The position numbers and the translations under genes were made by a program. DNA of 64,000 bases from Betaproteobacteria bacterium. Its GTDB lineage: Bacteria; Pseudomonadota; Gammaproteobacteria; Burkholderiales; Rhodocyclaceae. Below the pieces are notes generated by a model. The model did no database searches. It had not been told where the DNA came from and saw only the letters and a program-made list of their open reading frames with translations. Positions 4,970-33,920 of the stretch are shown piece after piece. Numbering within the stretch: the first letter of the stretch is position 1; each line of letters begins with the position of its first letter. The stretch spans positions 23,975-87,974 of the forward strand of contig JACRAR010000037.1 of the NCBI GenBank assembly GCA_016234745.1. The letters run 5' to 3'.

Positions 4970-4986
4970 ATAGATTGGTAGGTAAA

Positions 4987-10524: not shown

Positions 10525-10529
10525 AGCGC

Positions 10530-12664: not shown

Positions 12665-14694
12665 TGCATTGCGGCAGCCAACTTTTCGCACCGGATGGCT
12701 ACAAGTCGTTGCATGCTGGCGAACCCTACCATTTGCTGCGCAACAAGAAAGGTCGCGTTCTGTTATTGAGGTTTGTCGGTGGCCTTAAGGTGGTGCCGGC
12801 GGCTTACCTCATTCAGATGGCCCAAGTGGAATTTGAAGATGGGATCGAATCGGACCTCATCGTCGTCAGCCTCGCTCAGCCCGCGCTTCCGCCTTGGTTG
12901 GCCGCTTTCGAAACCATCGACCCTTCGAAGATCGATTTGCTGCGACCACGCGCGAAGAAGAGCCATGCTTCCCGCGTGGAAGATCGGGTGATAGTGCTTC
13001 TTCCCGCCCTCCAACAAATCGATGCAATTCTTGATGCGTCCGATCCGAACCAAGAATTGAACAGAATCGCCCGCTCATGCCGGCCACGTCAAAACGAAAC
13101 CCGTTTTCGTCTCTGGTTCTATACCTACCTATGCTTCGGCCAGAACGTGTGGGCGCTGTTGCCACCCTTCCACAACATCGGACGTCACGATCGCCTGTCC
13201 TTTCCGGATTCGAAACAGGGGCGCCACAACAAGGCTTTCGGAAAGCACTACGGTTTCGGCTGCCGCCAGGAAGTGATCGACGGCTGCCTGCGGGGATGGG
13301 TGAAGCACTGTGGACTGGGCCAGACGATGAAATCCGTCTACGCTCGCACTATGGAATACGAATTCCATTGTCGTACCATCAAAACCCGCTTTGGCACGGA
13401 TGACTTCGTGCAGCCGGAGGGCAAGCCGTTTCCAAGCTACTGGCAGTTTCGCTACCGGGTGTTACAGAAGTTCGGCCTGAAAGTTGTCCAGATCACCTTG
13501 TATGGAACTGTCCGTCATCGGGCGCGACTGGCGGCATCGCAGGGGGCGTTTTCGGAAGCGGTGGCGAATCTCCTGGAAAGGGTCGAAGCCGACGCTTACA
13601 ACACCAAGGAACGACCGAAGGGTTTCGTGGAGGGCAGCACGCTGCCAGCGCTTTCAGTGGTGATCGGGCGCGATTGGCTTAGCGGCATGAAACTAGGCAT
13701 CGGTTTCTCCTTTGGCGCAGAACGGAACTCGGCGTATCGCGCCATGTTATTCTCGATGGCGGTGCCAAAAGACTTTTTCTGCGCACTCTTTGGCATTACG
13801 ATCAATCGCGAGGATTGGCCCAATGTGGGACTTCCCGGCTTTCTGTCGGTTGACCGCGGCCCGGGCGCATCAGATCGTCTCGTTGAAAATTATGATCCGA
13901 AACTCCCCATCCGGGAGATTGCACCGTCGTGGTCGCCTCAGTCCAAAGCGACCGTCGAGTCGTCGCACCCGCGCGACATCAAGATCGAAGGAGCGCCGTA
14001 CTACATCCAGAGCGAACTGACGCCGGTGGAATTGGCTAAACAGGAGGTCTACCGTCTCCTCAACTACAATCACACCGCTGATATGTCGGACCGTTTTCAG
14101 CCGGTAGGTGATCTGGCGCTCGTCCCGCCCGACCCGGCCAGCCTTTGGGAATACTACGACCGAAAATGCCGCAACGACGCGGTACCAATTTCGATCGCCG
14201 ACGCTGTCAGAGCGTTTCTGATCCCGGTCGAACTATCCATGACGGAGAAGGGCATCTGGCTCCACGAGCAGTGCTATATGTCGGAGGCACTCAAAGCAAC
14301 AGACGTATTGGCCAAGCTCAAACGGTCACCGCAAACGACGGTTACGGTAAAGGGGTACATGCTGGAGATGTGTGTCCGCCACCTTTGGGTGGAGATTCAG
14401 GGCGAGCTTTTGCTCCTTGATGCCCAGCTTCGCTTGCGAGACGATGAACAGTTGCTCTTTCTGTCGTCTGCAGAACTCGATCAGTGGCATGAGACACGGA
14501 CGGTGGTTGCCTCCGCCTTCGGACCTCATCAGCATGCGGCCACCACCAAGACCTTGCGCACGTTCGAGGAGGACGTTGGTAAGCGCTGGGAAGCCGGCCG
14601 CATCCGGCGTGGCAAACCCAAGAAAGACAAGTTGGCGGAACGCGAATTCGCCGAGGCCAGGAAGTACACTTCAGGAGGTAAGAAAGCCGCATGA
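12664..14694 (+). CDS. tnsB: Tn7-like DDE transposase TnsB
   Basis: This 676-residue transposase of the Mu/TnsB (rve integrase core) class. Candidate catalytic residues are Asp310 (VEADAY), Asp397 (FLSVDRGPG) and Glu432 (ATVESSH). The last two are 35 residues apart, the canonical D-35-E spacing. The region before residue 310 should hold the helix-turn-helix modules that bind the end repeats, and a Mu-type C-terminal beta-barrel follows the core. It would carry out the strand-transfer steps at the AATAAAGTCTGTCGG ends. ATG 12664 overlaps the tnsA stop by one base (TAATG), and the stop overlaps the tnsC start (ATGA). Confidence 0.92.
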   Translation: MHCGSQLFAPDGYKSLHAGEPYHLLRNKKGRVLLLRFVGGLKVVPAAYLIQMAQVEFEDGIESDLIVVSLAQPALPPWLAAFETIDPSKIDLLRPRAKKSHASRVEDRVIVLLPALQQIDAILDASDPNQELNRIARSCRPRQNETRFRLWFYTYLCFGQNVWALLPPFHNIGRHDRLSFPDSKQGRHNKAFGKHYGFGCRQEVIDGCLRGWVKHCGLGQTMKSVYARTMEYEFHCRTIKTRFGTDDFVQPEGKPFPSYWQFRYRVLQKFGLKVVQITLYGTVRHRARLAASQGAFSEAVANLLERVEADAYNTKERPKGFVEGSTLPALSVVIGRDWLSGMKLGIGFSFGAERNSAYRAMLFSMAVPKDFFCALFGITINREDWPNVGLPGFLSVDRGPGASDRLVENYDPKLPIREIAPSWSPQSKATVESSHPRDIKIEGAPYYIQSELTPVELAKQEVYRLLNYNHTADMSDRFQPVGDLALVPPDPASLWEYYDRKCRNDAVPISIADAVRAFLIPVELSMTEKGIWLHEQCYMSEALKATDVLAKLKRSPQTTVTVKGYMLEMCVRHLWVEIQGELLLLDAQLRLRDDEQLLFLSSAELDQWHETRTVVASAFGPHQHAATTKTLRTFEEDVGKRWEAGRIRRGKPKKDKLAEREFAEARKYTSGGKKAA

Positions 14695-16031
14695 ACCAGA
14701 CACCTGATACGCCGTGGGCAGCCAGATTCCGGTCATTGCTCGACAAGGAAGAGATCCGGCGCCAAGCCAACATGGCGGCAACACCGTTGGTCAGCCTCGA
14801 CGCACTGCCTGTAGACGCCGCGTGCGTAATCTTGGCCAGAGAGCTGAAGCAGGTCTTCTACCCAACAACACAGGTAGTGGATATTTTGCACAGTCTGATT
14901 GAACGGGCTCTTGGCCATTGCCTGCAGCATTATGCGGACGCACGAACGTATATGGACGGCATCTACCGCAAGGATTCGCCGCTGCCCGAGTTCGTGCCGC
15001 CGGCCTGCCTGACGGGACTGGCCGGCGTCGGCAAGTCCTGCTTGGCCAGCGCCCTGCAGCGAATCCTTCCTACCGATGGTACTGTTAACTGTCCGCCGGA
15101 GTCAGTGGCATTCCCGCTCCGCTCCCTCTGGAAGATCGACGTTCGGATCCAGTCCTCGGTCAAGGAAATTTTTACGCCGCTTGGTGGCGCTGACGGTTCC
15201 CTAAGTGACCAGGTTAGCTCGGCGCGCAAACGTGCCTACCGCGACGGGGTGTCCCTGTTGCTGGCGGACGAGTTCCAGTACCTAACGGCGAGCGCGGAGG
15301 CCAATACCCGAATTGCGCAAACGCTGATCGCGATGGGTTATTGTGGTTTACCGGCGTTCTATATTGCGAACTACAGCTTGCTCTATCGGTTACTTAGGCG
15401 CCCGCAGGAGGATCAGGACCGGCTGCTGTCGGACGTGGTCGTGATGCTGCCCGACCCGCCTGAAAGCGAGGACTGGTCAAATACCCTCGCTGCGCAGATC
15501 GGCGTAGCGCCGGAGATATTTCGAATCGACCCAAAGACGGATGGCCCACAGTACCATCGCTTCTGCGCCGGCATCAAGCGGGCAGCGGCGCGCCTCCTCG
15601 TGATTGGTTATCGGACTGCGCGAACGGAGAGACCGAAAGAGGGACGCACGATTGTCACCATGAGGGACATTAAGGCTGCCTACGAGTCCGCGGCGTTCTC
15701 GGCTCACCGCAGCGATAATGAAATCATTACGCAGCAAGTGATCCTTAATCGTCAGGTGGACAGAAAGCGCCGTGATCTCTGGTGTCCTATCGGTCAACCC
15801 GAGAACGCTAGCGCCAAGCTGGCGAATGAAATGACTTTGCAGCGCGAGATTCAGCTAGCGGGGAAGATTCAGCAGGCGGCGGCAACTCGCGATGAACGTT
15901 CGGCATTGGCCGATCAGCGTGCTTCAGCAGGAGATGGACCCTCTAGTGCAGTGTTGAATTTCCCGCGCAAGAAGCGACGTCCTACAGCGGATATGCTCAA
16001 GGCGAACGCGTTAAGTCTGTATGAACCATAG
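14691..16031 (+). CDS. tnsC: Tn7-like transposition regulator ATPase TnsC
   Basis: This 446-residue AAA+ ATPase has Walker A GLAGVGKS (109-116) and Walker B SLLLADEFQYL (about 188-198). In Tn7-like systems TnsC links the target selector (TniQ/TnsD) to the TnsAB transposase and confers target immunity. The C-terminal 100 residues are charged and probably bind TnsA/TnsB. The first codon overlaps the tnsB stop (ATGA). The following gene starts about 170 bases later, after a hairpin. Confidence 0.92.
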   Translation: MNQTPDTPWAARFRSLLDKEEIRRQANMAATPLVSLDALPVDAACVILARELKQVFYPTTQVVDILHSLIERALGHCLQHYADARTYMDGIYRKDSPLPEFVPPACLTGLAGVGKSCLASALQRILPTDGTVNCPPESVAFPLRSLWKIDVRIQSSVKEIFTPLGGADGSLSDQVSSARKRAYRDGVSLLLADEFQYLTASAEANTRIAQTLIAMGYCGLPAFYIANYSLLYRLLRRPQEDQDRLLSDVVVMLPDPPESEDWSNTLAAQIGVAPEIFRIDPKTDGPQYHRFCAGIKRAAARLLVIGYRTARTERPKEGRTIVTMRDIKAAYESAAFSAHRSDNEIITQQVILNRQVDRKRRDLWCPIGQPENASAKLANEMTLQREIQLAGKIQQAAATRDERSALADQRASAGDGPSSAVLNFPRKKRRPTADMLKANALSLYEP

Positions 16032-17260: not shown

Positions 17261-18283
17261 ATGGCTGCTCGTGGTGTAGCGATTGTTGGAGGAGGGCCGG
17301 CAGGTTGCAGTGCAGCATTGCACTGCAGCCAGTTGGGAATTCCGGTCGTTCTATTCGAGTCGCGCGACCGATATCGAGAAAAACCCTGTGGAGATGCACT
17401 CGTCGCGAGTGCCGTTGCGCTTATTCAGCGCTTTGGCTTGGGGCAGGAAGAGCTTTTTTCTCTCGGTGGTCGGCCATTCAACGAGATACGGTTTGGACGA
17501 GTTGAATCGGCCGGTGCCCATCGATCGTCGCCTCATCCAGGGGGCTGGGTCGTTCCCCGCGCGGCTCTAGATCAGGCCCTTCGTGATGTCGTGTCCAGGA
17601 CATGCGAGGTGCGTTACAGTTCGGCAGTAGCGGAGTTGTTTCCAAACGGCTCCGGAGTATCCGTCAAAGTATCTCAATCAGACGGAATGGGGGAGCACTT
17701 CAGAGCTGCGATTATCGCATCTGGGGCAGCGTCCCGTCTATCGAAGAGCCTCGGAATTGATGGCGCTCCGACGCAAGGCGTGGCATTCCGCGGGTATGTT
17801 GAAGGAGTACAACACCGGAACTCACTGCTGGTTGAATTGACGAGTAATCCCACGATGGAGTACCGGTGGGAGTTCCCGATCGACGCGAGTGCGAATGTGG
17901 GAGCCTGTTTGCTGGGGTTCAGCATCGGAGAATCCAAGGGTACCGCCGTGGCTGGCCTGAAATCGCTCGTCGCCGGTTTTGGGATAACGAAATTCTCTGG
18001 TGGTGTTGAACCTCTCTGGAGTGGCAACGGACGAAGATGGCATCATGCTTCTGGGATAGTCAGTTGTGGTGACTGCGCCGGCATCGTCGATCCAATTACC
18101 GGTGAGGGAATAACGGCGGCGCTCATGAGCGGTGAAATGGCAGCGTTCGCAGTTGCGAGCTATATGGAAAACAGAGATATCATTACTCTTGAGCGATTCT
18201 CGATGCGAATTGGGGAGACGTTTTCGGCGAAATACACGGCGCAGAAGGACATCGTATCAAGCATGCTAGCGTCCTTGGAATGA
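17261..18283 (+). CDS. Geranylgeranyl reductase family flavoprotein (archaeal-type lipid saturation)
   Basis: This 340-residue FAD-dependent reductase has the dinucleotide fold VAIVGGGPAGCSAAL at the N-terminus and KPCGDAL at 41-47. It also has the family signature YRWEFP at 201-206 followed by NVG, and GDCAGIVDPITGEGI at 270-284. Such enzymes saturate the isoprenoid chains of chlorophyll, menaquinone or, in archaea, of digeranylgeranylglyceryl phospholipids. The prenylglyceryl synthase and UbiA genes are in the same cargo cluster, so the lipid role is the best reading. ATG 17261 is the first gene of a four-gene rightward operon, and the next gene starts directly after its stop. Codon use and GC are lower than in the backbone. 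Confidence 0.85.
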   Translation: MAARGVAIVGGGPAGCSAALHCSQLGIPVVLFESRDRYREKPCGDALVASAVALIQRFGLGQEELFSLGGRPFNEIRFGRVESAGAHRSSPHPGGWVVPRAALDQALRDVVSRTCEVRYSSAVAELFPNGSGVSVKVSQSDGMGEHFRAAIIASGAASRLSKSLGIDGAPTQGVAFRGYVEGVQHRNSLLVELTSNPTMEYRWEFPIDASANVGACLLGFSIGESKGTAVAGLKSLVAGFGITKFSGGVEPLWSGNGRRWHHASGIVSCGDCAGIVDPITGEGITAALMSGEMAAFAVASYMENRDIITLERFSMRIGETFSAKYTAQKDIVSSMLASLE

Positions 18284-19483
18284 ATGCAAACAGAAGATCG
18301 TGGTGTCTCCGTCACGCCCTCCTTCTATGGTGATGCGATGAATACCGACCCTGTAGCGTCGGGCATGGCTTACCAACGTCCCTCGATACGCTGGCCTTGG
18401 ATTAACACCCCTTGGTCAAGGAAGCCCCCCCTTCATTACAGCTGCGTCTGGGAGGACGCCGACGTTCTTTGCGCGGCGCTCCAGCCGGTGGCACTAGGGC
18501 GGCGGCTACTGTCCATTTCGTCAGCAGGAGACAATGCGCTCGCATTGCTGACACTCGAGCCAAGCGAAGTCGCCGCGATCGATATCGATCCCACGCAACT
18601 TGCGGCGCTTGACTTGCGCTCGCGGGCGTTCGAGGCGCTCGACCACGACGATGTTCTCGTGTTTCTCGGTGTGCGAGAGGGTCACAATCGAGCGACTATT
18701 TACCGCACACTCCGCTCGGCGCTGTCGCGATCGAGCCGCGAGTTCTGGGATAACGTGCCGAACGCGATTCAGGCTGGAATTATTCATTGTGGCAGATTCG
18801 AGCGATACATGCGCTGGTTTCGATGCCTTCTCCCGCAGCGCACGCGCGCCGCGATGCGACGGCTCGCGGACGCAAACGGATCCGAGGAGCGCTCACGTAT
18901 TTTTGATGAAGAATACGACGGATTGCTGTGGCGTACGCTGAGCGCGGTTGCGTTTGCCCCACGAACGATATCAACGTTCGATAAACGGCGTCCATATCTT
19001 GATCGCGCATCCAGCGATGTTGTTGAAATGATGCGTCGACGTCTGAAAAATGTCCTTACGGCGGCCCCATGGAACGAGAGTTCCTATCTTACCTATTTTT
19101 TTACGGGCAACTATGGCTACGGCGCCTTACCCCTCTATCTACGGCCAGAACATCATGATGCCATTCGGTCAGGAATCAGTCGGCTTTCCATTCATAACGT
19201 TGACCTGGCGGATTCGGCCGTGCTCGGGCGATTCAGTGGATTCAACCTTTCCAACGTTCTTGATTACAATGCACCAGATTCCTTCGGCAGAACCTATCGC
19301 GGTGTGCTTTCGGCTGCTGAACCTGGGGCGCGACTCGTCTATTGGTCTGCCTCTGCTGACTCGCAACGCCCCACAGGATCAACTTGCGTGCAGTCGGTGG
19401 CCGAGGCGAAGCGCCTCCAAGAGCGCGATCGTGTTGGCGCATATGAATCGTTTCATATTGACGAAGTCTGCGCGCCGATATAG
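18284..19483 (+). CDS. DUF3419 (BtaA-like) S-adenosylmethionine aminocarboxypropyl transferase
   Basis: This 399-residue protein resembles BtaA, which moves the 3-amino-3-carboxypropyl group of S-adenosylmethionine onto diacylglycerol in betaine-lipid synthesis. Recognisable parts are HYSCVWEDADVL (51-62), SISSAGDNALALL (77-89), DIDPTQLAALDL (100-111) and GRFERYMRWFRCLLPQR. These form the SAM-binding Rossmann core of the family. The first ATG abuts the stop of the reductase gene. In this context the acceptor is more likely a prenylglyceryl ether lipid than diacylglycerol, which is inference. No BtaB-type N-methyltransferase lies nearby, so a full trimethylated betaine headgroup is not predicted. 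Confidence 0.75.
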   Translation: MQTEDRGVSVTPSFYGDAMNTDPVASGMAYQRPSIRWPWINTPWSRKPPLHYSCVWEDADVLCAALQPVALGRRLLSISSAGDNALALLTLEPSEVAAIDIDPTQLAALDLRSRAFEALDHDDVLVFLGVREGHNRATIYRTLRSALSRSSREFWDNVPNAIQAGIIHCGRFERYMRWFRCLLPQRTRAAMRRLADANGSEERSRIFDEEYDGLLWRTLSAVAFAPRTISTFDKRRPYLDRASSDVVEMMRRRLKNVLTAAPWNESSYLTYFFTGNYGYGALPLYLRPEHHDAIRSGISRLSIHNVDLADSAVLGRFSGFNLSNVLDYNAPDSFGRTYRGVLSAAEPGARLVYWSASADSQRPTGSTCVQSVAEAKRLQERDRVGAYESFHIDEVCAPI

Positions 19484-19526
19484 GTTGCGAAGTTAGGCCA
19501 TCCCGGCGAATGAAAGAGAAAGTGCT

Positions 19527-20936
19527 GTGATTACCGATCTTCCGGATATCTGGCGGCGCACATCGTCTCTGTTGAATGAGGAGGTGGACGCGATCGTTCT
19601 CGTCGCGTTCCGTCTGCTTTTTTACCGTCTTGAAGATGACGGTTTCTTTCCTGGTTCTCCCGGATTGATCGATACGGTACGCGGAGAGGCGCCGGTTCCC
19701 CGTGAACTCAAAACGCTGATGCGAAACGGTGAATCCGGCGATGTCCAAACGTTCGTCCGCCTCGTTGAAGATCGATTGATCTCTCGTGACACTAGGGCGG
19801 TTGCCTCTTTGGCCTTCGCGATCGATCGAGTGTATGGGCCCTATTTATCGGAGAGCCTCAAAGACGGGGACCCCGGCCGCCAGCGAATCGTAGCCGAAGC
19901 CGTTAACGCGGCGAACCGTGCTCTTCGCCTAGAAGGGCTCCACGCGATTGTTCTAGTACGGTTACAGCGTTATTGGTCGAAGTACGAGAATTACGCCCCT
20001 GAAATTCCACCACAGGATTTCCCTTCGGAATTTCTTCATTTTGTTCCTCTCACCACAAAACTAAGCCGCGTTGACTACAGCAGGATACACGGCAGCGACC
20101 CACGCATGATTGTGGTCGCGCTTTGGCCGGTTGAAGGGCCAAAATTTGGCGATCCTGAACTGAACGTGAGCCCGCCTGTAAGTGGTATGAGTAAGTTTCG
20201 CTTCAAGCCTTGGAAGGATCTTCCGACGGGCAATCAGGCCCAACACCAATCGTTTGCAAATCGAATCGCCAAGTATGTCACCAGTGCCGATGACGCCAGG
20301 GGTTTGATTTACGTCGTAGCTGCGCCTGAACTCATGTTGGCACCGGAGGTCCATCGCACCATCAACGAAGCAGTCGCAACTCGGCGAAATGCAGCGTGGA
20401 TTGTGTTTCCCGGATCTTACCATTTCGAGCTGGGGAAACACGTCGTCAACCTTGCAGTGATGCACGTCGGCGGCGTGATCAATAAGAATGACTTATTTGT
20501 TGACCACGCGTGTGGAGCCGTCGCGGCAGTGAAGGGAATTCCCTTCGTTGAGCGCTACCAGGGACTAGAATACGTAGAAGACATTGACCGTACTGCTTCG
20601 TCTATTCATGTGCTGGATAGCCCCATCGGAAGAATCGCAGTAATGATCTGCCGTGACTTTCTCGAGGGTAGACTCACAGAAGAAGTCCTTTCGATGGGTA
20701 TTGATCACCTTTTCGTGCTCTCGATGTCGCCCGACAGTGGCTTCAAATTTGAAACGGCGATGGAAGGTGCGAGCAACCGGTTGACAGGGACGTTCGTCGT
20801 AAACGCGTTTACTAAACGCGATTCCAAATTCTTTGATGCTGGTTACCGCAAACCGTTGAAAGATGAGAGAGTTGTTCGGAAGCCACCCACAAGCGACGAA
20901 CCTTTCTGTGTCGTTGTCCTCAAGCCTGACCAATGA
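19527..20936 (+). CDS. Carbon-nitrogen hydrolase (nitrilase-fold) protein with a unique N-terminal domain
   Basis: The C-terminal half of this 469-residue protein (about 190-469) is a nitrilase superfamily domain with a possible Glu-Lys-Cys triad: Glu268 in VVAAPELML, Lys320 in VINKNDLF, and Cys375 in AVMICRDFLEG. Such enzymes hydrolyse or form amide and nitrile bonds, and some are amidases or N-acyltransferases. The first 160 residues are mainly helical and unlike known nitrilase partners. The start is GTG 19527 behind GAAAGAGAAAG, and an ATG 17 bases upstream is out of frame. It overlaps the next gene by four bases (ATGA). It may act on an amide of the lipid headgroup or on its amino-acid donor. 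Confidence 0.7.
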   Translation: MITDLPDIWRRTSSLLNEEVDAIVLVAFRLLFYRLEDDGFFPGSPGLIDTVRGEAPVPRELKTLMRNGESGDVQTFVRLVEDRLISRDTRAVASLAFAIDRVYGPYLSESLKDGDPGRQRIVAEAVNAANRALRLEGLHAIVLVRLQRYWSKYENYAPEIPPQDFPSEFLHFVPLTTKLSRVDYSRIHGSDPRMIVVALWPVEGPKFGDPELNVSPPVSGMSKFRFKPWKDLPTGNQAQHQSFANRIAKYVTSADDARGLIYVVAAPELMLAPEVHRTINEAVATRRNAAWIVFPGSYHFELGKHVVNLAVMHVGGVINKNDLFVDHACGAVAAVKGIPFVERYQGLEYVEDIDRTASSIHVLDSPIGRIAVMICRDFLEGRLTEEVLSMGIDHLFVLSMSPDSGFKFETAMEGASNRLTGTFVVNAFTKRDSKFFDAGYRKPLKDERVVRKPPTSDEPFCVVVLKPDQ

Positions 20937-21574
20937 GTCAACCGGCCGAGTGGTTTGAAAATCTCGTTATCGATGGCGGTATTGTACGTCGCTCAGACGG
21001 GAAGCTGGCTATTGGAGCCGTTCTGGTTATTGAGAAGGGCACAGGCGAAATCATCGTCGTGACTAAGGCCCGCAAGCCCGGCTATGCGTTCAGCGATCTC
21101 GATGCTTTACCCGGTGGCCTGCTGCGGAGTACCGGAAGCGATCCGATCGAACGGAGCGTTCTAGATCGAATCGCGATCGAATCGCTTGCCCGTCGCTCGG
21201 CTGCGGAGGCCGGCTTCGTGTGCGCAGTGTCGCCAAAGCCGATCTATTCTGTAGGTCCACCCACAACATCCTACGTCGTCGGTGGTGTTCAACAATACGT
21301 GCTCGTCGTTCCCTATTCCGCGACGGCTGCAAGCGACTTCACGCCGGTCGCCGCCGACCGATCCGTCACCGCTGCGCGATGGATGGATCCGTTGGCGGTG
21401 ATTCCGAATCTCTCTCCTGCGAGCTGCATAATCGTATGCTCGGTTATGTGGACTCGGTTCAGTTCGGTCGATCGAACAGCGTGCAGACCTGCTCTTGAAA
21501 CGGCGGTCGAATCGTGTCAGGAGTGGGCTCGTCAAGTTGGCGCGCCGCCGGTTGACGTTTCATGGCTTCGATGA
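20933..21574 (+). CDS. Nudix-like protein with a degenerate catalytic box
   Basis: This 213-residue protein has a Nudix-type fold signature. LPGGLLRSTGSDP is followed by ESLARRSAAEAGF, which replaces the usual REUXEEXG glutamates with less acidic residues. The C-terminus is unassigned. The loss of acidic residues suggests weak hydrolase activity or a binding role, perhaps for a nucleotide-linked or pyrophosphate intermediate such as a prenyl diphosphate. It starts inside the nitrilase-type gene (ATGA overlap) and converges with the MFS gene, whose stop is adjacent on the other strand. Confidence 0.55.
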   Translation: MSQPAEWFENLVIDGGIVRRSDGKLAIGAVLVIEKGTGEIIVVTKARKPGYAFSDLDALPGGLLRSTGSDPIERSVLDRIAIESLARRSAAEAGFVCAVSPKPIYSVGPPTTSYVVGGVQQYVLVVPYSATAASDFTPVAADRSVTAARWMDPLAVIPNLSPASCIIVCSVMWTRFSSVDRTACRPALETAVESCQEWARQVGAPPVDVSWLR

Positions 21575-22873
21575 TTAGGCGGGCATCTTGTCCGACCGGA
21601 CGGTCTCGGGCTCAGGTAAGCCTCTTGCGACCCAAACACCAGCAAAGAGTAGCACAGCCATCGCCAGCATTGCGCTCCGGTGTGCCCATTGTCCGTAGTC
21701 AGCCAGAAGCCAGACGACTGCTCCCCAGATGAGCGGACCGAGTATTGCCGAAAATCGTTCCGCCACGGAATACAGACCAAAATACAATCCCATGCGATCG
21801 TCCTTTCCTGCTACTGCGAGATAAGCGCGGGATAGTGCCCACGCGGCGCCAAAAAGCAACCCGCATGGTGCGAAGAAGGCCAAGAACACGGCAAACGACG
21901 GTGCAAAAGCAATCCCAACTAATCCAACGCACCAGCCCCAAAGCACAAGGACCAGGAGCCGGCGGATACCGTAGCGGAGCGCAAGCGCGCCTGCCGCCAT
22001 CGCGCCGATCCCAGCCGTGATAAGCGCGACCAGCACGGTCAATGCCACTTTTTCGCTCGGCAGCGACCAAACTTCGCGAAGGTAGATGGGGATGAACAAC
22101 TGCACTGATAGTATCGCATCGCCATAGAGATAAAACGCTAGCAGGAATCGGCGGATAGTTCGGTCGCGTGTGGAATCTAGTAGTTGATCCAAGGACTCGC
22201 GATAGCGTCCGCGAATTGTGATTTCGGCTACCGGAGAGGAGCCTTCGCGATCATGCAAGAAACAAAGGACGACTAATACCGTAACACCGGAGATCAGGCC
22301 TGCTGGTGCGAGGGTGAAAATTCCGCCAGGCGGCAGCAGCGGCGGAATTCCGGTCGTGACAAGCGGCAGTACGAGGAATATTCCGACGATGGATCCAAAA
22401 TGTCCCAATCCTTCGCCAACTCCCGACAGTATCGAGGTCGAACGGCCAGTGATCAGCCGCGGGAGCATCGAGTCATAGAAAATCAAGCTCGTTTGATAGA
22501 AGTAGTTTAGAAAGAAGAACAGGATGAGTACTGCAACGGCGCGGGGTAGCCCATCCTCAAGGCTAAGCACAACTACAGGAATGAGGACAGCGCAAAGCGT
22601 AATAAGTACCGTCTGCCAACGAAGCCACGTCACGCGGTGCGTCGTTCGGTCGACAATCCATCCAACGACTGGAGCGGTCAGTAGTAGCGCGACCGTGGAA
22701 GCCGCAAAGCTGAATCCATACCAAAACTCGCGGATGCCGTGCGTAGTCACCCACTGCGAAATGTAGAGTGACCCGTTGATGATCACGAAGGAGTTGCAGA
22801 AATCAAAGAGACTCCACGCCACGCGGATTCTCCGTCGAGGCGCAACCCCAGATGCAGCCTTCGTCTCACTCAT
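21575..22873 (-). CDS. MFS transporter, UMF1/Atg22-like
   Basis: This 432-residue protein has about twelve hydrophobic segments and opens with AWSLFDFCNSFVIINGSLY, the typical first-helix sequence of the UMF1 (Atg22-like) branch of the major facilitator superfamily. GWIVDRTTHR after the second segment is the usual cytoplasmic loop. The start ATG 22873 is preceded by GAGGAGG; further upstream codons belong to the preceding gene. It is the last gene of a five-gene leftward operon with an eight-base overlap to the prenylglyceryl synthase. It may export a product or take up a precursor; the substrate cannot be read from sequence. Confidence 0.8.
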   Translation of the reverse strand: MSETKAASGVAPRRRIRVAWSLFDFCNSFVIINGSLYISQWVTTHGIREFWYGFSFAASTVALLLTAPVVGWIVDRTTHRVTWLRWQTVLITLCAVLIPVVVLSLEDGLPRAVAVLILFFFLNYFYQTSLIFYDSMLPRLITGRSTSILSGVGEGLGHFGSIVGIFLVLPLVTTGIPPLLPPGGIFTLAPAGLISGVTVLVVLCFLHDREGSSPVAEITIRGRYRESLDQLLDSTRDRTIRRFLLAFYLYGDAILSVQLFIPIYLREVWSLPSEKVALTVLVALITAGIGAMAAGALALRYGIRRLLVLVLWGWCVGLVGIAFAPSFAVFLAFFAPCGLLFGAAWALSRAYLAVAGKDDRMGLYFGLYSVAERFSAILGPLIWGAVVWLLADYGQWAHRSAMLAMAVLLFAGVWVARGLPEPETVRSDKMPA

Positions 22874-23624
22874 GATTTCCTCCTCGCGGCACAATGGCTC
22901 CGAATGACGCATATTTTGAACGTGACGTCGCCCCCTCGAACACCGACCCCACGACCACGACGTCTGCACCAGCAGAAAATGCTCTTTCGGCTTCTTCCGG
23001 GCGACGAATTCCACCACCGACGACAAGGGAAACGCCCACTGCCGCTCTAACGGCGGCAATCACTTCGGCGGGAACACACTCGATCGCACCACTCCCAGCG
23101 TCAAGATAAACACACCTAGCGCCGGTCAACTCACCGCATAACGCCAACGTGGCCGCAATTTCCGGCTTGTCGCGCGGTAGTGGGACGCCCTGCAACCCAT
23201 GGCTTGACGAGGTAATACGGCCGCCATCAACGGCTAGATAGGCCATTGGAACGACAGGAGTGCCTAGCCCCTTGAGAGCGGGTGTGGCACGGTAGGCCTG
23301 CCCCAACAATTCACCAGCGGCTGAAAGCGTACCAATGAGAGGTAACAGTACTCCGGAAAGCCCCGGCACAAGCGTTGTCTCTGCCGCTGATAGTCCGAGG
23401 ATCGCGAATATCGGCAGGCTGCACTGGCATCCGGCGTCGACCGCGGCGCGTGTAATGTCTCTACCGTCCGCACGATGAAGGAACGTGCCGCCAATCCACG
23501 CTCCTGTGAAGCCGTTACTGGACGCAAGTCGAATTGCATCCGTCGCGTTTGGTCCGGTGGTGCGATCAGGGTCGATAAGTAGCACTAGGCCACCCTCGCC
23601 AAATGGTGACGAGCGTCCGATCAT
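22866..23624 (-). CDS. Geranylgeranylglyceryl phosphate synthase homologue (PcrB/GGGPS family)
   Basis: This 252-residue TIM-barrel protein has the GGGPS/PcrB landmarks: LLIDPDRT (15-22) near the start, YLDAGSGA (173-180), VVGGGIRRPEEA (201-212) and GADVVVVGSVFE (219-230). The family joins a polyprenyl diphosphate to sn-glycerol-1-phosphate, the first committed step of archaeal ether lipids. Bacillus PcrB uses a C35 chain and its product is not a membrane lipid. Adjacent UbiA and reductase genes favour the full archaeal-type route here. The start ATG 23624 overlaps the UbiA stop (ATGA). No glycerol-1-phosphate dehydrogenase is seen in the window, so its acceptor must come from elsewhere or be different. 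Confidence 0.82.
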   Translation of the reverse strand: MIGRSSPFGEGGLVLLIDPDRTTGPNATDAIRLASSNGFTGAWIGGTFLHRADGRDITRAAVDAGCQCSLPIFAILGLSAAETTLVPGLSGVLLPLIGTLSAAGELLGQAYRATPALKGLGTPVVPMAYLAVDGGRITSSSHGLQGVPLPRDKPEIAATLALCGELTGARCVYLDAGSGAIECVPAEVIAAVRAAVGVSLVVGGGIRRPEEAERAFSAGADVVVVGSVFEGATSRSKYASFGAIVPRGGNHE

Positions 23625-24490
23625 AGGATACTGCCGGCTATGAACACACCAAATACGGCGATGGCTGCATAGCGGTGCAATCGTTGTATTCGGCGGGCCG
23701 GCATGATGTCGGGCCAGGCGAATAACCAAGCGCTCGCAACAAAACCTGCGATACCGAGACCCGACGATATCATGCCGAAGGTGAAACCAGGCGGCCGGCC
23801 GAGAATGAGCGCGACACATCCAGCGGCAGCAATGGCGCTCGCACTTCGCGCGGCAATGGTTTTGCCTCGGAGTATTGGAATCGTGCGAAGTCCGGCAAGC
23901 CTATCGCCAGGCTCGTCTTCAATATCCTTCCAAATCTCGCGTGCCAGCATGAGCAAAAAGAGCACAAGTAGAAGCGATAGAATTTTCGGTGAATAACCTT
24001 GAAGCAGACCGGGCGAGGCAGATGTTGCCACGCAGAATGCAGTGAGAAGGTTTGCCAAGAGACCGGAGCGTCGCTTGAGCCCGAATGAATACCCGATCGC
24101 ACAACAGGACCATGCTATTTCGAGTACAAGAAATCGATCGAGAGGTACGAAGGCACCGGTAAGGAGCGCAACACCTGCGGCGATCATAACCGATGCGATG
24201 ATCCAGAGGGGTGTTTGGTCCACCCTCTGAAGGTAGCGATCCGGTCGGTTCACCCGATCACGTATGCGATCGACTAGGTCGTTTATCGCGTACGCGGTTG
24301 CGGCCAGCGCGGTCCAACTGATGAACAACAATACCAAGTCAAATCCAGCCCAGTGACGTCCTAACTGCGTCTCATCGACTGAGAACACGGCGAGTGCGCC
24401 GAGCAGCGTACTGTTCCCCATACGAAAGAGCTGCGCTAGTATTTCTGCGTGGTGGATCTTTGTAGGCAGTTGAAGAGTATTGAAGCCCAT
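23621..24490 (-). CDS. UbiA-family prenyltransferase, digeranylgeranylglyceryl phosphate synthase type
   Basis: This 289-residue integral membrane prenyltransferase has both Asp-rich motifs. The first is NDLVDRIRDRVNRPDR (about 70-85) and the second EIWKDIEDEPGD (about 185-196), followed by GLRTIP. The NDxxDxxxDxxNxPxR form and the KDIED-xx-GD form are characteristic of digeranylgeranylglyceryl phosphate synthases, which add the second isoprenoid ether chain. About eight or nine membrane helices are visible. ATG 24490 is used as start; TTG 24508, overlapping the upstream stop, is possible. Its stop overlaps the prenylglyceryl synthase start, so the two lipid enzymes are coupled. Confidence 0.85.
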   Translation of the reverse strand: MGFNTLQLPTKIHHAEILAQLFRMGNSTLLGALAVFSVDETQLGRHWAGFDLVLLFISWTALAATAYAINDLVDRIRDRVNRPDRYLQRVDQTPLWIIASVMIAAGVALLTGAFVPLDRFLVLEIAWSCCAIGYSFGLKRRSGLLANLLTAFCVATSASPGLLQGYSPKILSLLLVLFLLMLAREIWKDIEDEPGDRLAGLRTIPILRGKTIAARSASAIAAAGCVALILGRPPGFTFGMISSGLGIAGFVASAWLFAWPDIMPARRIQRLHRYAAIAVFGVFIAGSIL

Positions 24491-24497
24491 ACCGCTA

Positions 24498-26144
24498 TTA
24501 GCGCTCAAGCTGACTAACCGCTTGGTCGCAGTCTTCGAGTCGTTTCTTTAGATCGGAGCTAATCCCGTGCGGTGCCAGTTGTTGAAAGAGCCTTCGTGTT
24601 TTCTCAAGATTATCTTTGAGGGCGGGTGTCTTTACCATTCCGTCATTCTCGACCACGTGGATTTGTAGTTCGAGCCGGCCGAGTTCACAGAAAGCCTTTG
24701 TGAACAGCATCTCGTGAGAATAGCGGTCCCAATCCCGGTCAGTAAACATATCAGCGTGGTTACGTTTTTCGAACCGTGTCGCGAAGTCGATCGCGTCACG
24801 GAACGCGTCAATGGCTTTACTCCGTGCCTTATCTGCGGCGAGAACTCGGGCGTAGAACACAAGCGCCTCCAACTCGATCTTCCAATGGCCGATTGATGCA
24901 TCTGCCTTATCCCAGGGCTCGTCGGGTTCAAGTCCCCGCCTCTTCCGAATGAGCTTTCGCGCCTCCTCAAAATACTTGACGCCGTCAGGCAATTGAGCGT
25001 ACGTCAATCGCTGACCCTCCAGCTTTTGACAATGGATGCTCCCGTAAACATAGAAGGCGTTCGCCGACATGACCTGTGCTTCCTTTATAAGTCCAGATAC
25101 CCGTTCATTGTCCAGGCCGGCTGCCGATCCTTCGTAGATCGCTTCGTCAATGAGATTATCTATTGCCGCGAACTTATGTCGCGCCAACATCTCTGCAATT
25201 CGGACGTACGGTCGAAAAATCGCCGCATCGGGGTCGCTGGGAACAACGAGCCGCTCAGCTACGGCAAGTGTTGCGACATACGGCAATCGGACGGGTTCGC
25301 CAAGAATCCGCAGTGTCCGTTGTTCGCCGCCGATGGCGTCCGCTCTCGTTCGGATGTCCTTCAGCAACTTCTCTGCGTGCAGGAAACGATCGCCCACAAG
25401 GTCGAGCTCAGCTGAAGGAATTAGAGAGAGAACTGGAATAACATTCAAATCGATTTCGCGGTACGGAAGGACTTCTTCAACTCCCTGAAGCGCGGCGTTC
25501 AAACCGTCAAGATTCTGCTCGTTTAAACCGGCAATCACCACGGCGACGTCTGGGAGCATTCCCACGCAGAACCGTAGGTAATCTGATAGCCCTGTTCGAC
25601 TGTCGATCAACGTGAAGTCGTACTCCTTGCGCCACCAACGATCACGCATCGACAAGATGAGCTCCATGCCCCCGTGTTTTGTGAGAAACTTGTACCATCC
25701 GACATGCGCGAGTATCTCGACCGCTTGATGCGTGGCGGGGCCAGCGGGTAGTACGTCGACAAATCCGTCGGGCGTTCGATGTTCATACACCCTGCGTTTC
25801 CATTTCTGCCAGGTGATGGGGTCGCCCTTGGCGGGGACGAACGGGTCCTGGAACGGCCGCTCCTTTTTCTTGAGCGAAGAGCAGATTTGCCGCTCGACTA
25901 GGTCGAGCATTCCTCCGACGCCGAGTTCTCGCTTCTTCGGGGAGACGTACTTGATCGACGACTCGACTGCCTCATGAAACAGCGGATAGTCTTGCACTCC
26001 GGGGGCGAGCAGGTCAAGGTCTACAACAAGCACCCTGAAGCCGTTCTCTGCGAGCGTCATGGCGACGTTTACCACGGACATCGTCCGTCCTACGCCACCC
26101 TTATACGAATAGAAACTGACTATTGTGCCGGGGACGTCAGCCAT
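24498..26144 (-). CDS. KGGVGR-type P-loop ATPase (ParA/MinD-like) with a helical C-terminal region
   Basis: The 548-residue protein opens with a deviant Walker A, SYKGGVGRTMS (13-23), of the KGGVGR branch of ParA/MinD-like ATPases. The aspartate loop VLVVDLDLLAPG and the region FTLIDSRTGLSDYLRFC follow. Members of this branch often sit in multi-gene systems linked to peptide maturation or to conflict between genomes. The C-terminal 230 residues are helical and look TPR-like (repeated Ala-rich helices such as YFEEARKLI and AIDAFRDAI). It shares one base with the upstream winged-helix gene (TAATG) and precedes the lipid enzymes in the same operon. It probably acts as a sensor, switch or membrane-localising factor for the system. 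Confidence 0.75.
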   Translation of the reverse strand: MADVPGTIVSFYSYKGGVGRTMSVVNVAMTLAENGFRVLVVDLDLLAPGVQDYPLFHEAVESSIKYVSPKKRELGVGGMLDLVERQICSSLKKKERPFQDPFVPAKGDPITWQKWKRRVYEHRTPDGFVDVLPAGPATHQAVEILAHVGWYKFLTKHGGMELILSMRDRWWRKEYDFTLIDSRTGLSDYLRFCVGMLPDVAVVIAGLNEQNLDGLNAALQGVEEVLPYREIDLNVIPVLSLIPSAELDLVGDRFLHAEKLLKDIRTRADAIGGEQRTLRILGEPVRLPYVATLAVAERLVVPSDPDAAIFRPYVRIAEMLARHKFAAIDNLIDEAIYEGSAAGLDNERVSGLIKEAQVMSANAFYVYGSIHCQKLEGQRLTYAQLPDGVKYFEEARKLIRKRRGLEPDEPWDKADASIGHWKIELEALVFYARVLAADKARSKAIDAFRDAIDFATRFEKRNHADMFTDRDWDRYSHEMLFTKAFCELGRLELQIHVVENDGMVKTPALKDNLEKTRRLFQQLAPHGISSDLKKRLEDCDQAVSQLER

Positions 26145-26971
26145 TAGTGGGGGGCCGTAGCATTGCCGGTGCCGTCAGCATTCATTTTTTTCATAGTGTC
26201 CTTGTACAACGTGCCGAGTGCGTTGACATGGTTTGCGATCGAGATTTTGTTGTCGCTGGCCAAAATTACATCGGCAATCGAATACGTAACGTCTTTGTTC
26301 TCTCGAATCTCGTTAATCCACGTGCGCCGAATTTCATCTTGCATCGCTGCTCGAAGGTCGTCGTCCCGAGCTGCCTCGTCGACAAGGAACAAGGCGAATT
26401 CATATCGCCTCATGCGGCGCGCTAAGATCGCCTCGCCGAGATGCGACACGCGGTAAGCCACTGCCTTCGGGCCAAGTTTAAGGCGCTCGAGCATTCCTAG
26501 TTTGGCGAGTTTCGAGGCATGATATTTGACCTTGCTTTCCGATACGCCTGTAGAACGCACGACTCCGCGAACAAGCTCCGTCGCGCGCGATCCGGAATGC
26601 GCGAATGCTGTTTTGAGAATCATCATCCTGACCAAATCGACGGGCTCCGACGCATCCCTGTCGACCGATAGCTTCGCCTCAGCGGCATCAACGGCATCAC
26701 GATCGACTATCTTAGTGACATAGTTCGTGTATGCGCTGATGAAACCGGTGAGATACGCCAACTTTCCCACCGGTGTCGGTCCTGTGTCCTCCTCAGTCTT
26801 CCTAATTATCGCTGAAAGGTCGGGGTACTCCCCAAGTTGAAGCGCCACTGCGGCTGGGCCGAGAGTCTGAACATTGCGAATTATCTTGCGTACCAGCGCC
26901 TCGAGCGCAGCGACAAGCGCCACGTCGTCTCTGTTCGAGTAGGCATCATATATAGCATTCATTGGCATCAT
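26144..26971 (-). CDS. Winged-helix protein heading the KGGVGR/lipid operon
   Basis: This 275-residue protein of unknown family has a central winged-helix region: VRSTGVSESKVKYHASKLAK, then LGMLERLKLGPKAVAYRVS, at about 140-180, like ArsR/MarR-type DNA-binding domains. An N-terminal helical domain and a C-terminal helical tail flank it. It is the first gene of the leftward operon and overlaps the KGGVGR ATPase gene by one base, a pairing that suggests a sensor-regulator unit. It probably binds the AT-rich region just upstream (26972-27179) and autoregulates both divergent units. The start is ATG 26971; ATG 26968 or 26962 is also possible. Confidence 0.6.
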   Translation of the reverse strand: MMPMNAIYDAYSNRDDVALVAALEALVRKIIRNVQTLGPAAVALQLGEYPDLSAIIRKTEEDTGPTPVGKLAYLTGFISAYTNYVTKIVDRDAVDAAEAKLSVDRDASEPVDLVRMMILKTAFAHSGSRATELVRGVVRSTGVSESKVKYHASKLAKLGMLERLKLGPKAVAYRVSHLGEAILARRMRRYEFALFLVDEAARDDDLRAAMQDEIRRTWINEIRENKDVTYSIADVILASDNKISIANHVNALGTLYKDTMKKMNADGTGNATAPH

Positions 26972-27179
26972 GACTTAAGTTTAGCAAATATTTTCAATAT
27001 TGGGCAACAATGGGTCAAGATGATAACATTCTTATATTACTCATGTATTACTCTGAGGGTAGCCTGGAGGTACGCGAGTCCCTAGCTACCCGTGTGAGTT
27101 CGGCGGCGAGAAGGCTGAATAAAGACCCGTACGACCATGGTTGGCTCTCTAAGAGACTGACAACCGTTGAAGGCGATTA
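26972..27179. promoter_or_regulatory. Divergent AT-rich control region of the lipid cluster
   Basis: This 208-base gap separates the leftward operon from the rightward PLP-fold gene. It contains two AATATT boxes three bases apart (26987-27001). It also contains a perfect seven-base inverted repeat, GGGTAGC at 27057-27063 and GCTACCC at 27085-27091, which could fold as a hairpin in the leader of the rightward gene. It is a plausible binding region for the winged-helix protein. Confidence 0.4.
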
Positions 27180-28349
27180 ATGGAAACCGAGGCGATGGAC
27201 ACCACTTCCGTAGCAACAACCGCGCGTGAGCACGATGTACGTCTTGCTGCACTGGCCTCTGAGTGCGGTACACCGCTCTATGTCTACAATCTGACGTTGA
27301 TCCGCGCCCGCGTGTTGGAATTAAAGCGAATGCTGGACCCAGTGGGAGGCCAGCTTTTCTTCGCAGTTGTAGCAAACGATCGACCGGAGATCCTTCGAGT
27401 GTTAGCTGAAATGGGCGTCGGCGCGTGCGTGAATTCGATGCCACATCTAATGCTTGCGCATGGCGTGGGAATTGTGTCCGCCGATACGCAATTTACTGCG
27501 ACAGGCATTACGCTACAAGATATGCGACGGCTTCAGGAACTGAAGGTCCGCGCAAACCTGGATTCCCTCTCTCAGCTAGAGGCATGGCTGGACCTTGGCG
27601 CCACAGAAGCGGGGATTCGCCTCAACGCTGCATCGCTAGGCGGTTCAAGATCAGCAGATCGACTTGGGATTCCCGCGAGCGAGTTGCCAACTGCCGTGTC
27701 GATCGCCGCCCGAGTTAATGCCCGCCTTACGGGCGTGCACGTATATCTGGGAACCAGTTTTCAAAGTCCGGAGGAAATGCTGCCTACCTTGCGCCGCGCT
27801 GTTGAAGTCGCGGCTGGGCTGCCATCGCTTTCGTACGTCAATATCGGCGGTGGGATTGGAGTTGACTACGAGCATCGCGGACGGCGTTTCAATTTGAGCG
27901 CGTTCGGAGACGGCCTAGCCGATTGCGCGCGGTTTCTATCCGATCGAGTTGGACGCCCAGTCGATTTGGTGTTCGAGCCTGGCCGTGCACTCGTCGCTGA
28001 ATGCGCCACATTCGTCACCACGGTAACCGACGTGAAGGAACTTCGAGGTGAGCGTTTTGTCGGTGTCGACGGGAGCATCGCTGTCTTTCCACGCCCCCTG
28101 GTTCATCCTGAGTCGCCGCATAGTATTCGCTGGATCGGACCAACGGCTTCGGACAGGTCTGGTCCCTTGCTACGGACGTCAATCGTTGGACGGTCCAGTT
28201 TCTCAGGCGACATTCTCGGAGTCGCCCAACTCCCCGGTGATTTGCGCGTCGGCGATCTGCTTGCATTTGATGACGCAGGTGCCTACCTACAATCCGTTGC
28301 CTCCCGCTTCCTTGGTCAACCGGAGCCCTCGACAGTTTTTTTGCGATAG
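27180..28349 (+). CDS. PLP-decarboxylase-fold (type III) protein lacking the catalytic lysine
   Basis: This 389-residue protein matches the ornithine/diaminopimelate decarboxylase fold: TPLYVYN near the N-terminus, NIGGGIGVDY (221-230), VFEPGRALVAE (264-274), VGDLLAFDDAGAY (357-369). In active enzymes the pyridoxal phosphate lysine lies in AVKAN; here the same spot reads AVVAN, with Val64 (codon GTA). The catalytic cysteine of the partner subunit, normally in a GxxCESxD context, is replaced by serine (GRSSFSGD, 337-344). So it is either a pseudoenzyme or uses the pocket differently. It is divergent from the KGGVGR operon and marks the right edge of the lipid cluster. ATG 27180 is used; ATG 27195 is possible. 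Confidence 0.75.
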   Translation: METEAMDTTSVATTAREHDVRLAALASECGTPLYVYNLTLIRARVLELKRMLDPVGGQLFFAVVANDRPEILRVLAEMGVGACVNSMPHLMLAHGVGIVSADTQFTATGITLQDMRRLQELKVRANLDSLSQLEAWLDLGATEAGIRLNAASLGGSRSADRLGIPASELPTAVSIAARVNARLTGVHVYLGTSFQSPEEMLPTLRRAVEVAAGLPSLSYVNIGGGIGVDYEHRGRRFNLSAFGDGLADCARFLSDRVGRPVDLVFEPGRALVAECATFVTTVTDVKELRGERFVGVDGSIAVFPRPLVHPESPHSIRWIGPTASDRSGPLLRTSIVGRSSFSGDILGVAQLPGDLRVGDLLAFDDAGAYLQSVASRFLGQPEPSTVFLR

Positions 28350-33620: not shown

Positions 33621-33778
33621 GCACATCAAGTCGGTAGGCTACAGAAGGCGGCTCGCTGGTCATCATTGTCGAAGCCCTCGGTACTGACTGTCCCGCGCCG
33701 CGAGCAAAGCTGCATGTTTATTGGCCCCGACTGACTATATTCCCGCCAGAGTAATGACAATCGCTGGAAATCGATGGC

Positions 33779-33903: not shown

Positions 33904-33920
33904 ACCTGTGGTGGAATAGA

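Follow-up and report, generated by a model that had tools for sequence, protein, structure and literature searches.

Archaea build their membrane lipids with GGGPS, DGGGPS and geranylgeranyl reductase (GGR) steps, and the test case for the 'lipid divide' is the occurrence of glycerol ether lipids of archaeal type in bacteria. Genes resembling those of all three steps lie together in the window, the whole stretch of 64,000 nucleotides from a Betaproteobacteria bacterium that was analysed here. This locus raises the question what such a set would make in its host. We propose, with a confidence slightly short of even, that the cluster builds an archaea-like diprenyl glycerol ether lipid with a homoserine-type head group; it is likely a conserved unit and likely mobile.

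Two convergent operons hold the PcrB/GGGPS, UbiA/DGGGPS-type, GGR-like and BtaA-like genes together with those for a KGGVGR ATPase, a probable winged-helix protein, an MFS protein, a nitrilase-fold protein and a Nudix-like protein (Table 1). The first-pass annotation had described the packing of archaeal-type lipid gene families with most of these partners (BtaA-like, KGGVGR, winged-helix, MFS and nitrilase-fold). This was borne out by the family profiles and by the frames, which were all open at the coordinates given there. Overlaps of 4-8 bases between the UbiA and GGGPS, the GGGPS and MFS, and the nitrilase and Nudix frames fit co-transcription.

Table 1 Features of the element and of its gene cluster (positions in the window)
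Feature	Position	Strand	Basis
Left end	4924..4975	+	terminal TGATAGGAAACAATAAAGTCTGTCGG and second copy of core repeat
TniQ target-selection protein	9562..10524	-	PF06527 8.8e-15, 56 bits (cut-off 27); PADLOC TniQ 2.1e-19
Gene at TnsA position	11666..12664	+	assigned by position only
TnsB-like transposase	12646..14694	+	similarity to plasmid transposases
TnsC-like ATPase	14691..16031	+	AAA_22 2.4e-4, 21.9 bits, under cut-off 27
GGR-like flavoprotein	17261..18283	+	TIGR02032, under cut-off
BtaA-like protein (DUF3419), predicted 3-amino-3-carboxypropyl transferase	18284..19483	+	PF11899
Nitrilase-fold protein with helical N-terminal part of about 190 residues	19527..20936	+	structure comparison
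Nudix-like protein, degenerate motif	20933..21574	+	motif by eye only
MFS/ATG22-like transporter	21575..22873	-	PF07690 7.6e-16, PF11700 2.4e-13
GGGPS/PcrB-family glyceryl-phosphate prenyltransferase (predicted)	22866..23624	-	Pfam PcrB (PF01884)
UbiA-family prenyltransferase, DGGGP-synthase type	23621..24490	-	PF01040, clade profile, motifs
KGGVGR-motif ParA-like ATPase	24498..26144	-	NF047398 107.9 bits (cut-off 90)
Probable winged-helix protein, first gene of minus-strand operon	26144..26971	-	weak matches only
Diaminopimelate-decarboxylase-like protein	27180..28349	+	LysA family; candidate cluster neighbour
Right end	33776..33873	-	inverted terminal-repeat copy and partial second site; repeat at 33848(-)

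The GGGPS protein matched PF01884 with 1e-20 and 74.6 bits (cut-off 23.9) and has a GGGPS-type TIM barrel. Profile, fold and tree agree with the claim that it falls within the GGGPS/PcrB family. It stayed under the NCBIfam subfamily cut-offs (TIGR01768 101.2 vs. 113.25; NF003198 129 vs. 247), and by its sequence it is a divergent family member, not an equivalog. Its sisters in the tree were rows from Gemmatimonadota, which weakens the 'archaeal' origin suggested before. In group II a chain-length limiter has been proposed; at the position aligned with it, in a gap-rich region beside an indel, all 17 clade members have E/D vs. V/I/L/F in five references; the position of W141, also in gap-rich and uncertain alignment, is His. 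The prenyl pocket looks remodelled, so that a C15 chain may take the place of C20.

The cluster could also be read as the source of a secreted phosphoglycolipid-type natural product. Its GGGPS-family protein, working like MoeO5, would couple farnesyl with 3-phosphoglycerate or another acid of this kind, while the remaining proteins would decorate and export the product. MoeO5 of moenomycin synthesis shares fold and family with the protein described here, for which a farnesyl donor is possible too. By structure, however, the latter is nearer to group II GGGPS than to MoeO5, and the gene partners of MoeO5 differ from those in the cluster. We regard this explanation as unlikely. In the bacterial PcrB/AraM heptaprenylglyceryl pathway of Bacillales, the first ether bond is made by an enzyme of this same family. 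As far as it is described in PMC9179154, that pathway has a single C35 chain and lacks a second isoprenoid one, whereas a UbiA enzyme for a second chain is predicted here, and PcrB structures scored about 5 Z units lower in the structure comparison.

For the UbiA protein (PF01040 7.6e-20, 71.7 bits vs. cut-off 34.2) the DGGGPS form had been claimed. Both Asp-rich motifs are present in its clade (motif 1 in 21/21 members, motif 2 in 20/21) with DGGGPS spacing. With a clade-only profile, the best solved relative was the DGGGPS of M. jannaschii (6m31, E 1.4e-8, nearly full length); the one other chain found was a decaprenyl-phosphate phosphoribosyltransferase (4.7e-5). The equivalog cut-off was missed (NF009521 66.7 vs. 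296), and the best-scoring NCBIfam model was NF009523 'prenyltransferase' (86.1 vs. cut-off 269). A quick tree with long branches grouped the protein with nine DGGGPS-like rows (SH-aLRT 82). The best careful tree, also with long branches, did not hold this group together, but the forced grouping was not rejected (AU p 0.234). Motifs and solved match speak for the DGGGPS form; the deep placement of the protein by these trees is tentative.

The GGR-like protein carries YRWEFP and GDCAGIVDP and fell short of the TIGR02032 cut-off (9.4e-42, 143.7 bits vs. 158.8). Its best solved matches were the archaeal chains 4opt/3atq (4e-15, best stretch only 5-46), followed by the halogenase 3i3l (2.6e-13) and the DGGGPL reductase 3oz2 (1.9e-11, nearly whole length). 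The missed equivalog cut-offs, the nearness of a flavin halogenase in score, the breadth of the UbiA family and the very long stem of the UbiA clade (2.8 and 4.6) would also suit prenyltransferases and a reductase that make a prenylated small molecule, quinone- or tetrapyrrole-like, instead of a glycerolipid. The GGGPS-family partner with its overlapping frame and the DGGGPS-spaced motifs of the UbiA protein argue against this reading, which we consider highly improbable.

The supply of precursors was examined in the same genome. PF13685 and PF00465 found a single frame, read as AroB, and no G1P dehydrogenase. Only two PF00348 synthases were detected, read as IspA-like (FPP-type) and IspB-like, and no GGPP synthase. 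Since only these FPP- and IspB-type synthases were found, the chain in this host is likely farnesyl (C15). The C20/G1P chemistry assumed in the first-pass annotation is weakened by the lack of a G1P dehydrogenase and of a third prenyl synthase in this genome and by the changed pocket residues. No phosphatase was found in the cluster. Against the proposed pathway stand these three absences, the changed pocket positions with their uncertain alignment, the NCBIfam cut-offs missed by GGGPS, UbiA and GGR, the halogenase scoring between archaeal reductases and the tentative deep placement of the UbiA protein.

The BtaA-like protein (PF11899 7.8e-54, 183.7 vs. cut-off 28.2) forms a clade of its own (n=10) and is predicted to be a 3-amino-3-carboxypropyl transferase. 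A PDB sequence search with this clade gave no relative (nothing below E 0.09). The DUF3419 transferase is shared with betaine-lipid synthesis by BtaA and BtaB, in which BtaB is the methyltransferase. In contrast, no methyltransferase family match was obtained among the ten cluster proteins scanned with Pfam and NCBIfam, and the partner genes predict a diether instead of a diacyl acceptor. We considered whether the LysA-like neighbour decarboxylates the head group, which would give an aminopropyl ether, and dropped the idea because the PLP-lysine position of this protein is Val (AVVAN vs. AVKAN; compared with 2yxx).

In the proposed pathway, a prenyl diphosphate and a glycerol phosphate would be linked by the GGGPS-family enzyme, a second prenyl chain would come from the UbiA enzyme, and both chains would then be saturated by the GGR-like flavoprotein. 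A postulated phosphatase would remove the phosphate, and the glycerol hydroxyl set free would receive 3-amino-3-carboxypropyl from S-adenosylmethionine through the BtaA-like enzyme, in the way that BtaA acts on diacylglycerol; CDP-activation would then not be needed. The MFS protein may move the product or a precursor. The KGGVGR ATPase and the winged-helix protein could switch on the operon or the pathway, and a small amide or nucleotide could be the compound that the nitrilase-fold and Nudix-like proteins modify or sense. As a guess, the host would benefit by remodelling its membrane when under attack or in phosphate stress. To our knowledge, no role of nitrilase or KGGVGR proteins in any ether-lipid pathway has been described.

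None of the nitrilase-like, Nudix-like and winged-helix-like genes passed a Pfam cut-off. The nitrilase-fold protein has the fold, backed by structure comparison of a low-confidence model, and an E-K-C triad. Among six nitrilase-like members, PF00795 was under its cut-off in two and undetected in four; a distant relative (L117) just exceeded it (23.3 vs. 23.2). A PDB sequence search with the nitrilase gave no relative up to 0.1. The Nudix-like protein had no Pfam match up to E 5, and its motif was recognised by eye. In P0273 a similar N-terminus follows the nitrilase within one frame. The winged-helix protein matched weakly to Csa3 (1.5e-3) and PaaX (0.019). A pairing of KGGVGR and winged-helix genes elsewhere was rejected, the upstream genes in three plasmids being not alike.

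The cluster lies in an element of about 4924-33873, bounded by inverted end repeats and situated directly 3' of the amtB stop codon (4915), where the alignment with five relatives stops (4905-4949). The closest amtB relatives in the plasmid collection are from Cupriavidus (80%), by which a betaproteobacterial host is plausible. The repeat AACAATAAAGTCTGTCGG stands at 4932(+), with a copy of 2 mismatches at 4952(+); with up to 3 mismatches allowed, the end-repeat pattern occurs five times in the window, vs. 0.03 expected. Both ends are flanked by GTTA, a shared sequence of 4 bp only vs. the 5-bp target duplication of Tn7 type. TniQ, the TnsABC-like gene order, repeated end sites, large cargo and an apparently fixed site resemble Tn7-like transposons; different are the position right after amtB and the TnsA/B/C-like genes, none of which passed a family cut-off in profile scans. 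For the gene at the TnsA position, searches of Pfam, NCBIfam and PADLOC gave no match within the limits applied. The TnsB-like protein had no Pfam match and showed 35% and 33% identity over 98-99% to annotated transposases of two Pseudomonas plasmids. The element is likely a Tn7-like transposon, as had been claimed, with support from TniQ and the inverted end sites. It also holds a paired ATPase module (5121-9459) of defence-like appearance.

Cargo of Tn7-like elements often carries defence genes, as stated in PMC8649781. As another explanation, the cluster could serve in defence or conflict, with the lipid or a KGGVGR/winged-helix/nitrilase module acting against phages or plasmids. Besides the paired ATPase module, the KGGVGR ATPase matched the PADLOC candidate family PDC-M28B (2.5e-18), a related ATPase is fused to TIR and near TIR genes in one of three annotated plasmids inspected, and the nitrilase part had a weak match (1e-3) to an RT-associated defence nitrilase. 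However, no complete known system emerged when 20 proteins of the window were scanned with PADLOC, and of the nine genes in the cluster four seem biosynthetic. We judge this explanation improbable. In the literature searched, no work was found joining geranylgeranyl reductase, defence system and phage, and the sole mention of KGGVGR found concerns mushroom lectins.

Six of the cluster families recur together. In protein lists, 17 of 40 other contig sizes were common to at least two of them (controls 0/83 and 1/100), co-location being inferred from equal contig size and not from the contigs themselves. BtaA and nitrilase families occur on contigs of equal size with GGGPS (15254, 2250452, 6083), and by the same criterion an Acidobacteria MAG has one contig with at least two families. 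The genes are hence not only scattered and never together, which had been named as evidence against the cluster, and from these data it is likely conserved as a unit.

Relatives in GTDB genomes were not found with the single GGGPS protein; the GGGPS clade alignment yielded 89, of which 80 were kept, all distant (best segment at most 54%). Around these 80 loci (flanks up to 10 kb, many shorter) UbiA, nitrilase, BtaA, GGR and KGGVGR were sought and a single UbiA was detected (L044), and tblastn of the window proteins gave no cluster gene, but some SAHH-like matches and one ATPase match. Clade profiles in sampled genomes, whose draws overlap and in which only first-look candidates were scored, found the own genome only for GGGPS (1/398, phylum draw; 1/297, family), UbiA (1/399, order) and KGGVGR (1/369, class; E 1e-40); the nitrilase profile found 3/398, two of them distant. 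Plasmids gave no match for GGGPS, winged-helix, nitrilase and UbiA, nine records for BtaA (22-32% identity) and twelve for KGGVGR, none covering 80%. Phages held no GGGPS match, and in viral contigs neither the alignments of GGGPS and UbiA nor the nitrilase and KGGVGR proteins found one. A Roseinatronobacter UbiA-DUF3419 operon was rejected as a relative, its UbiA being not similar (blastp E 0.4).

The nearest known case are Ca. Cloacimonetes and other FCB-group bacteria, for which PMC7852524 reports both ether-bond-step genes, GGR in the genome and no G1P dehydrogenase; in Ca. Cloacimonetes GGGPS and DGGGPS co-localise, which among bacteria seemed restricted to this group in that survey, and the two work together in E. 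coli. The present locus resembles this case in its neighbouring genes for both ether-bond steps, in having a GGR-like gene and in the G1P dehydrogenase not found in its genome. An ordinary archaeol-type phospholipid pathway as proposed there is conceivable, with head-group enzymes of the host (CdsA/PgsA) and BtaA and the others as passengers. The equal-size contigs with BtaA, nitrilase and GGGPS are hardly expected of passengers, and no GGPP synthase was found in this genome; we hold this pathway to be very unlikely. Furthermore, the sequences here form own clades and share a transposon-like element with genes for BtaA-like, KGGVGR ATPase, nitrilase-fold and Nudix-like proteins, in what is probably a proteobacterium.

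No title or abstract opening describing such a cluster was found in the literature searched. A further-reaching reading, which we consider rather doubtful, is a transposon-borne 'membrane conversion' island, controlled by the KGGVGR ATPase and winged-helix switch, that makes a phosphorus-free, short-chain (C15,C15) isoprenoid diether with homoserine head group and spreads it between bacterial phyla. If true, its lipid would be a class crossing the archaeal/bacterial divide and the betaine-lipid pathway. The cluster may supply a new lipid class. Since the set is compact, apparently mobile and equipped with a likely head-group enzyme and regulators of its own, it would allow the horizontal transfer of a membrane type to be tested directly in a laboratory strain.

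The open frames of all genes named in the first-pass annotation are present where it had placed them (table). The minus-strand set from the MFS to the winged-helix-like gene converges on the plus-strand set from the GGR-like to the Nudix-like gene. With the start codons chosen in this analysis, on which these sizes depend, overlaps of 1-8 bases were found for the frames of nitrilase/Nudix, winged-helix/KGGVGR, UbiA/GGGPS and GGGPS/MFS; BtaA starts immediately 3' of the GGR stop, and the gap between KGGVGR and UbiA is 7 bases. To judge from this layout, the packing appears similar to that of co-transcribed operons.

Genes of the putative ether-lipid cluster (positions in the window)
Gene	Position	Strand	Remark
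GGR-like (geranylgeranyl-reductase-like)	17261-18283	+	
BtaA-like (DUF3419)	18284-19483	+	
Nitrilase-fold	19527-20936	+	
Nudix-like	20933-21574	+	
MFS	21575-22873	-	
GGGPS (PcrB/GGGPS-family)	22866-23624	-	
UbiA (DGGGPS-type)	23621-24490	-	
KGGVGR ATPase	24498-26144	-	
Winged-helix-like	26144-26971	-	
LysA-like	27180-28349	+	divergent

Curated cut-offs were passed by PcrB, UbiA, DUF3419, the KGGVGR ATPase and MFS. With the NCBIfam models for GGGPS, DGGGPS and GGR the cluster proteins score under the cut-offs, and are therefore divergent members. GC3 of the cluster genes is 0.54-0.62, compared with 0.73-0.81 for five host genes in the window.

The recurrence of the cluster was searched for six families (GGGPS, UbiA, KGGVGR ATPase, GGR, BtaA and nitrilase). 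The GGGPS clade comprises P0001-P0019, the own protein included; the others are 50-74% identical, and identity then falls to mostly 33-42%. For UbiA the clade holds 21 proteins, 20 of them 61-81% identical to the own one, before matches fall to E 2e-12; the rows below are mostly annotated as DGGGPS, and their named organisms are archaea and one Neomarinimicrobiota. Relatives of the other four were obtained in one search with a joined query of four pieces, and matches were assigned afterwards. Besides the own protein, this gave clades of 6 (nitrilase), 13 (KGGVGR) and 9 members (BtaA), and of 5 for GGR, where the own protein was absent from the list.

Co-occurrence was inferred from equal contig sizes, taken as a sign of the same contig; the own contig (87,974 bases) was excluded, as were four members of the clades (source 'src') for which no size was given. 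At least two of the six families occur on 17 of the 40 other contig sizes. One of the 40 is 32,338, the value given for the cluster of the own UbiA. Sizes common with another family were 11 of 16 for GGGPS, 13/19 for UbiA, 9/13 for KGGVGR, 3/5 for GGR, 4/9 for BtaA and 5/6 for nitrilase. As a control from the same lists, non-clade sizes coincided with the clade size of another family in 0 of 83 cases for BtaA and in 1 of 100 (of 101) for GGGPS. By equal size, GGGPS is found with UbiA, BtaA and nitrilase (2,250,452 bases), with KGGVGR, BtaA and nitrilase (15,254 bases) and with UbiA, KGGVGR and GGR (23,314 bases). A contig of 795,307 bases from an NCBI Acidobacteria MAG likewise combines UbiA, KGGVGR and GGR; its GGGPS, BtaA and nitrilase were absent from the protein lists used. 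All six families together were on none of the other contig sizes. In protein P0273 a nitrilase and a Nudix-like start lie within a single frame, which would fit the same gene order elsewhere.

The GGGPS tree had 113 rows (16 of the 19 clade proteins, 78 of 80 loci, 17 of 101 other matches and two PDB chains) and was rooted with the archaeal PDB chain. The clade forms one group (SH-aLRT 100, stem 1.7), and its sister consists of 20 of the 25 Gemmatimonadota rows (SH-aLRT 100). The nearest GGGPS relatives among the rows examined are bacterial. Thus, the term "archaeal-type" used in the first-pass annotation holds as a label of predicted chemistry and is weakened as a statement on the ancestry of GGGPS. 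The UbiA clade is one group in both trees (18 of 21 proteins in one, 8 of 21 in the careful one); the best careful tree does not group it with the DGGGPS-like rows, and a tree joining them is not rejected (AU p 0.234). All 10 BtaA clade proteins group together in a tree with 29 of the 84 others.

Two inverted repeats were located, one at 4924 and one at 33873, with the sequence TGAT(A/C)G(G/A)AAACAATAAAGTCTGTCGG. Their core pattern has five matches in the window (≤3 mismatches) versus 0.03 expected. TniQ exceeds its family cut-off, and transposases from plasmids share 33-35% identity with the TnsB-like protein. With five relatives the alignment breaks off between 4905 and 4949, close to where amtB ends (4915). 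At the same site one relative (L110) carries a different element (about 3412-15202); its end repeats are similar (2 and 3 mismatches), its cargo is of the metal-efflux type (OEP, CusB/CusF-like, AcrB-family), and none of the window's genes was found in it. Elements of this family appear to insert at one fixed place, the 3' end of amtB. Only GTTA (4 bases) is common to both flanks, versus the 5-base duplication sought. The best amtB matches in the plasmid collection (Cupriavidus 78-80%, Burkholderia and Caballeronia 76%) would agree with a betaproteobacterial host.

Several other features were seen. A second, smaller end-repeat pair (33878-38629) directly adjoins the first element and encloses an NMT1-like and a PAS-GGDEF-EAL protein; no transposase was seen in it, and it is possibly a mini-element mobilised in trans. 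Near the element's left end (5121-9459), genes for two proteins are packed together: one of 794 aa, in which two ATPase domains of the GHKL type were recognised (HATPase_c_3 and histidine-kinase-like), and a 655-aa partner with no family match. This pair may be called defence-like. Beyond an IS1595-type transposase, genes for endonuclease/exonuclease/phosphatase-family and adenosylhomocysteinase-like proteins (30937-33620) make up the element's right part. Outside the element lies a cobalamin riboswitch (RF00174, 45927-46149, 104 bits).

The KGGVGR ATPase and the winged-helix protein are read as putative regulators, based on gene order, a PADLOC candidate-family match and one plasmid relative: a related ATPase is fused to TIR on one annotated plasmid, with no fusion on two others. 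In the LysA-like (diaminopimelate-decarboxylase-like) protein the PLP lysine position is Val and the CESGD motif reads SFSGD; it is probably not a PLP decarboxylase. The host genome also has two close pairs of additional UbiA-family genes (L092, L093, L095, L096), one gene being read as haem O synthase. A Roseinatronobacter plasmid operon (L090, 523-8507) encodes UbiA, a PEP-utilising kinase, DUF3419, a hypothetical protein, an AMP-ligase and a membrane protein read as phytol/dolichol-kinase-like, which raises the question of another prenyl/aminocarboxypropyl pathway.

Regarding substrates, PF13685 and PF00465 both match one frame in the host genome, read as AroB, and no G1PDH was found with them. 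PF00348 matches two proteins, one read as IspB-type and the other as IspA with YSLVHDDLPCMD, which we take to be the FPP-synthase pattern. Since the genome is 97.9% complete, absence of the missing genes is likely, though not certain. AraM is reportedly dispensable for making archaeal lipids in E. coli (Caforio 2018, cited in PMC13400652), and Ca. Cloacimonetes MAGs likewise lack G1PDH (PMC7852524). Because of these cases the missing G1PDH does not exclude the lipid pathway. A C15 chain is predicted, since FPP is the donor available in the host.

Taken singly, pairs of GGGPS and DGGGPS in bacteria, BtaA lipids and Tn7-like cargo are all of known kinds. For their combination in one cluster no description was found in a literature search at the level of titles and abstract openings. 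We tentatively propose, at slightly below even chances, that the cluster builds an archaea-like ether lipid with a BtaA-type head group. The observed basis comprises the families, the fold, the packing, the equal contig sizes and the signs of mobility. The steps would run from GGGPS via UbiA and GGR to a dephosphorylation and finally BtaA. BtaA-type transfer requires free diradylglycerol and SAM, without CDP-activation. This makes the model attractive, as GGGPS, UbiA and BtaA would then need only a single phosphatase to yield a complete lipid.
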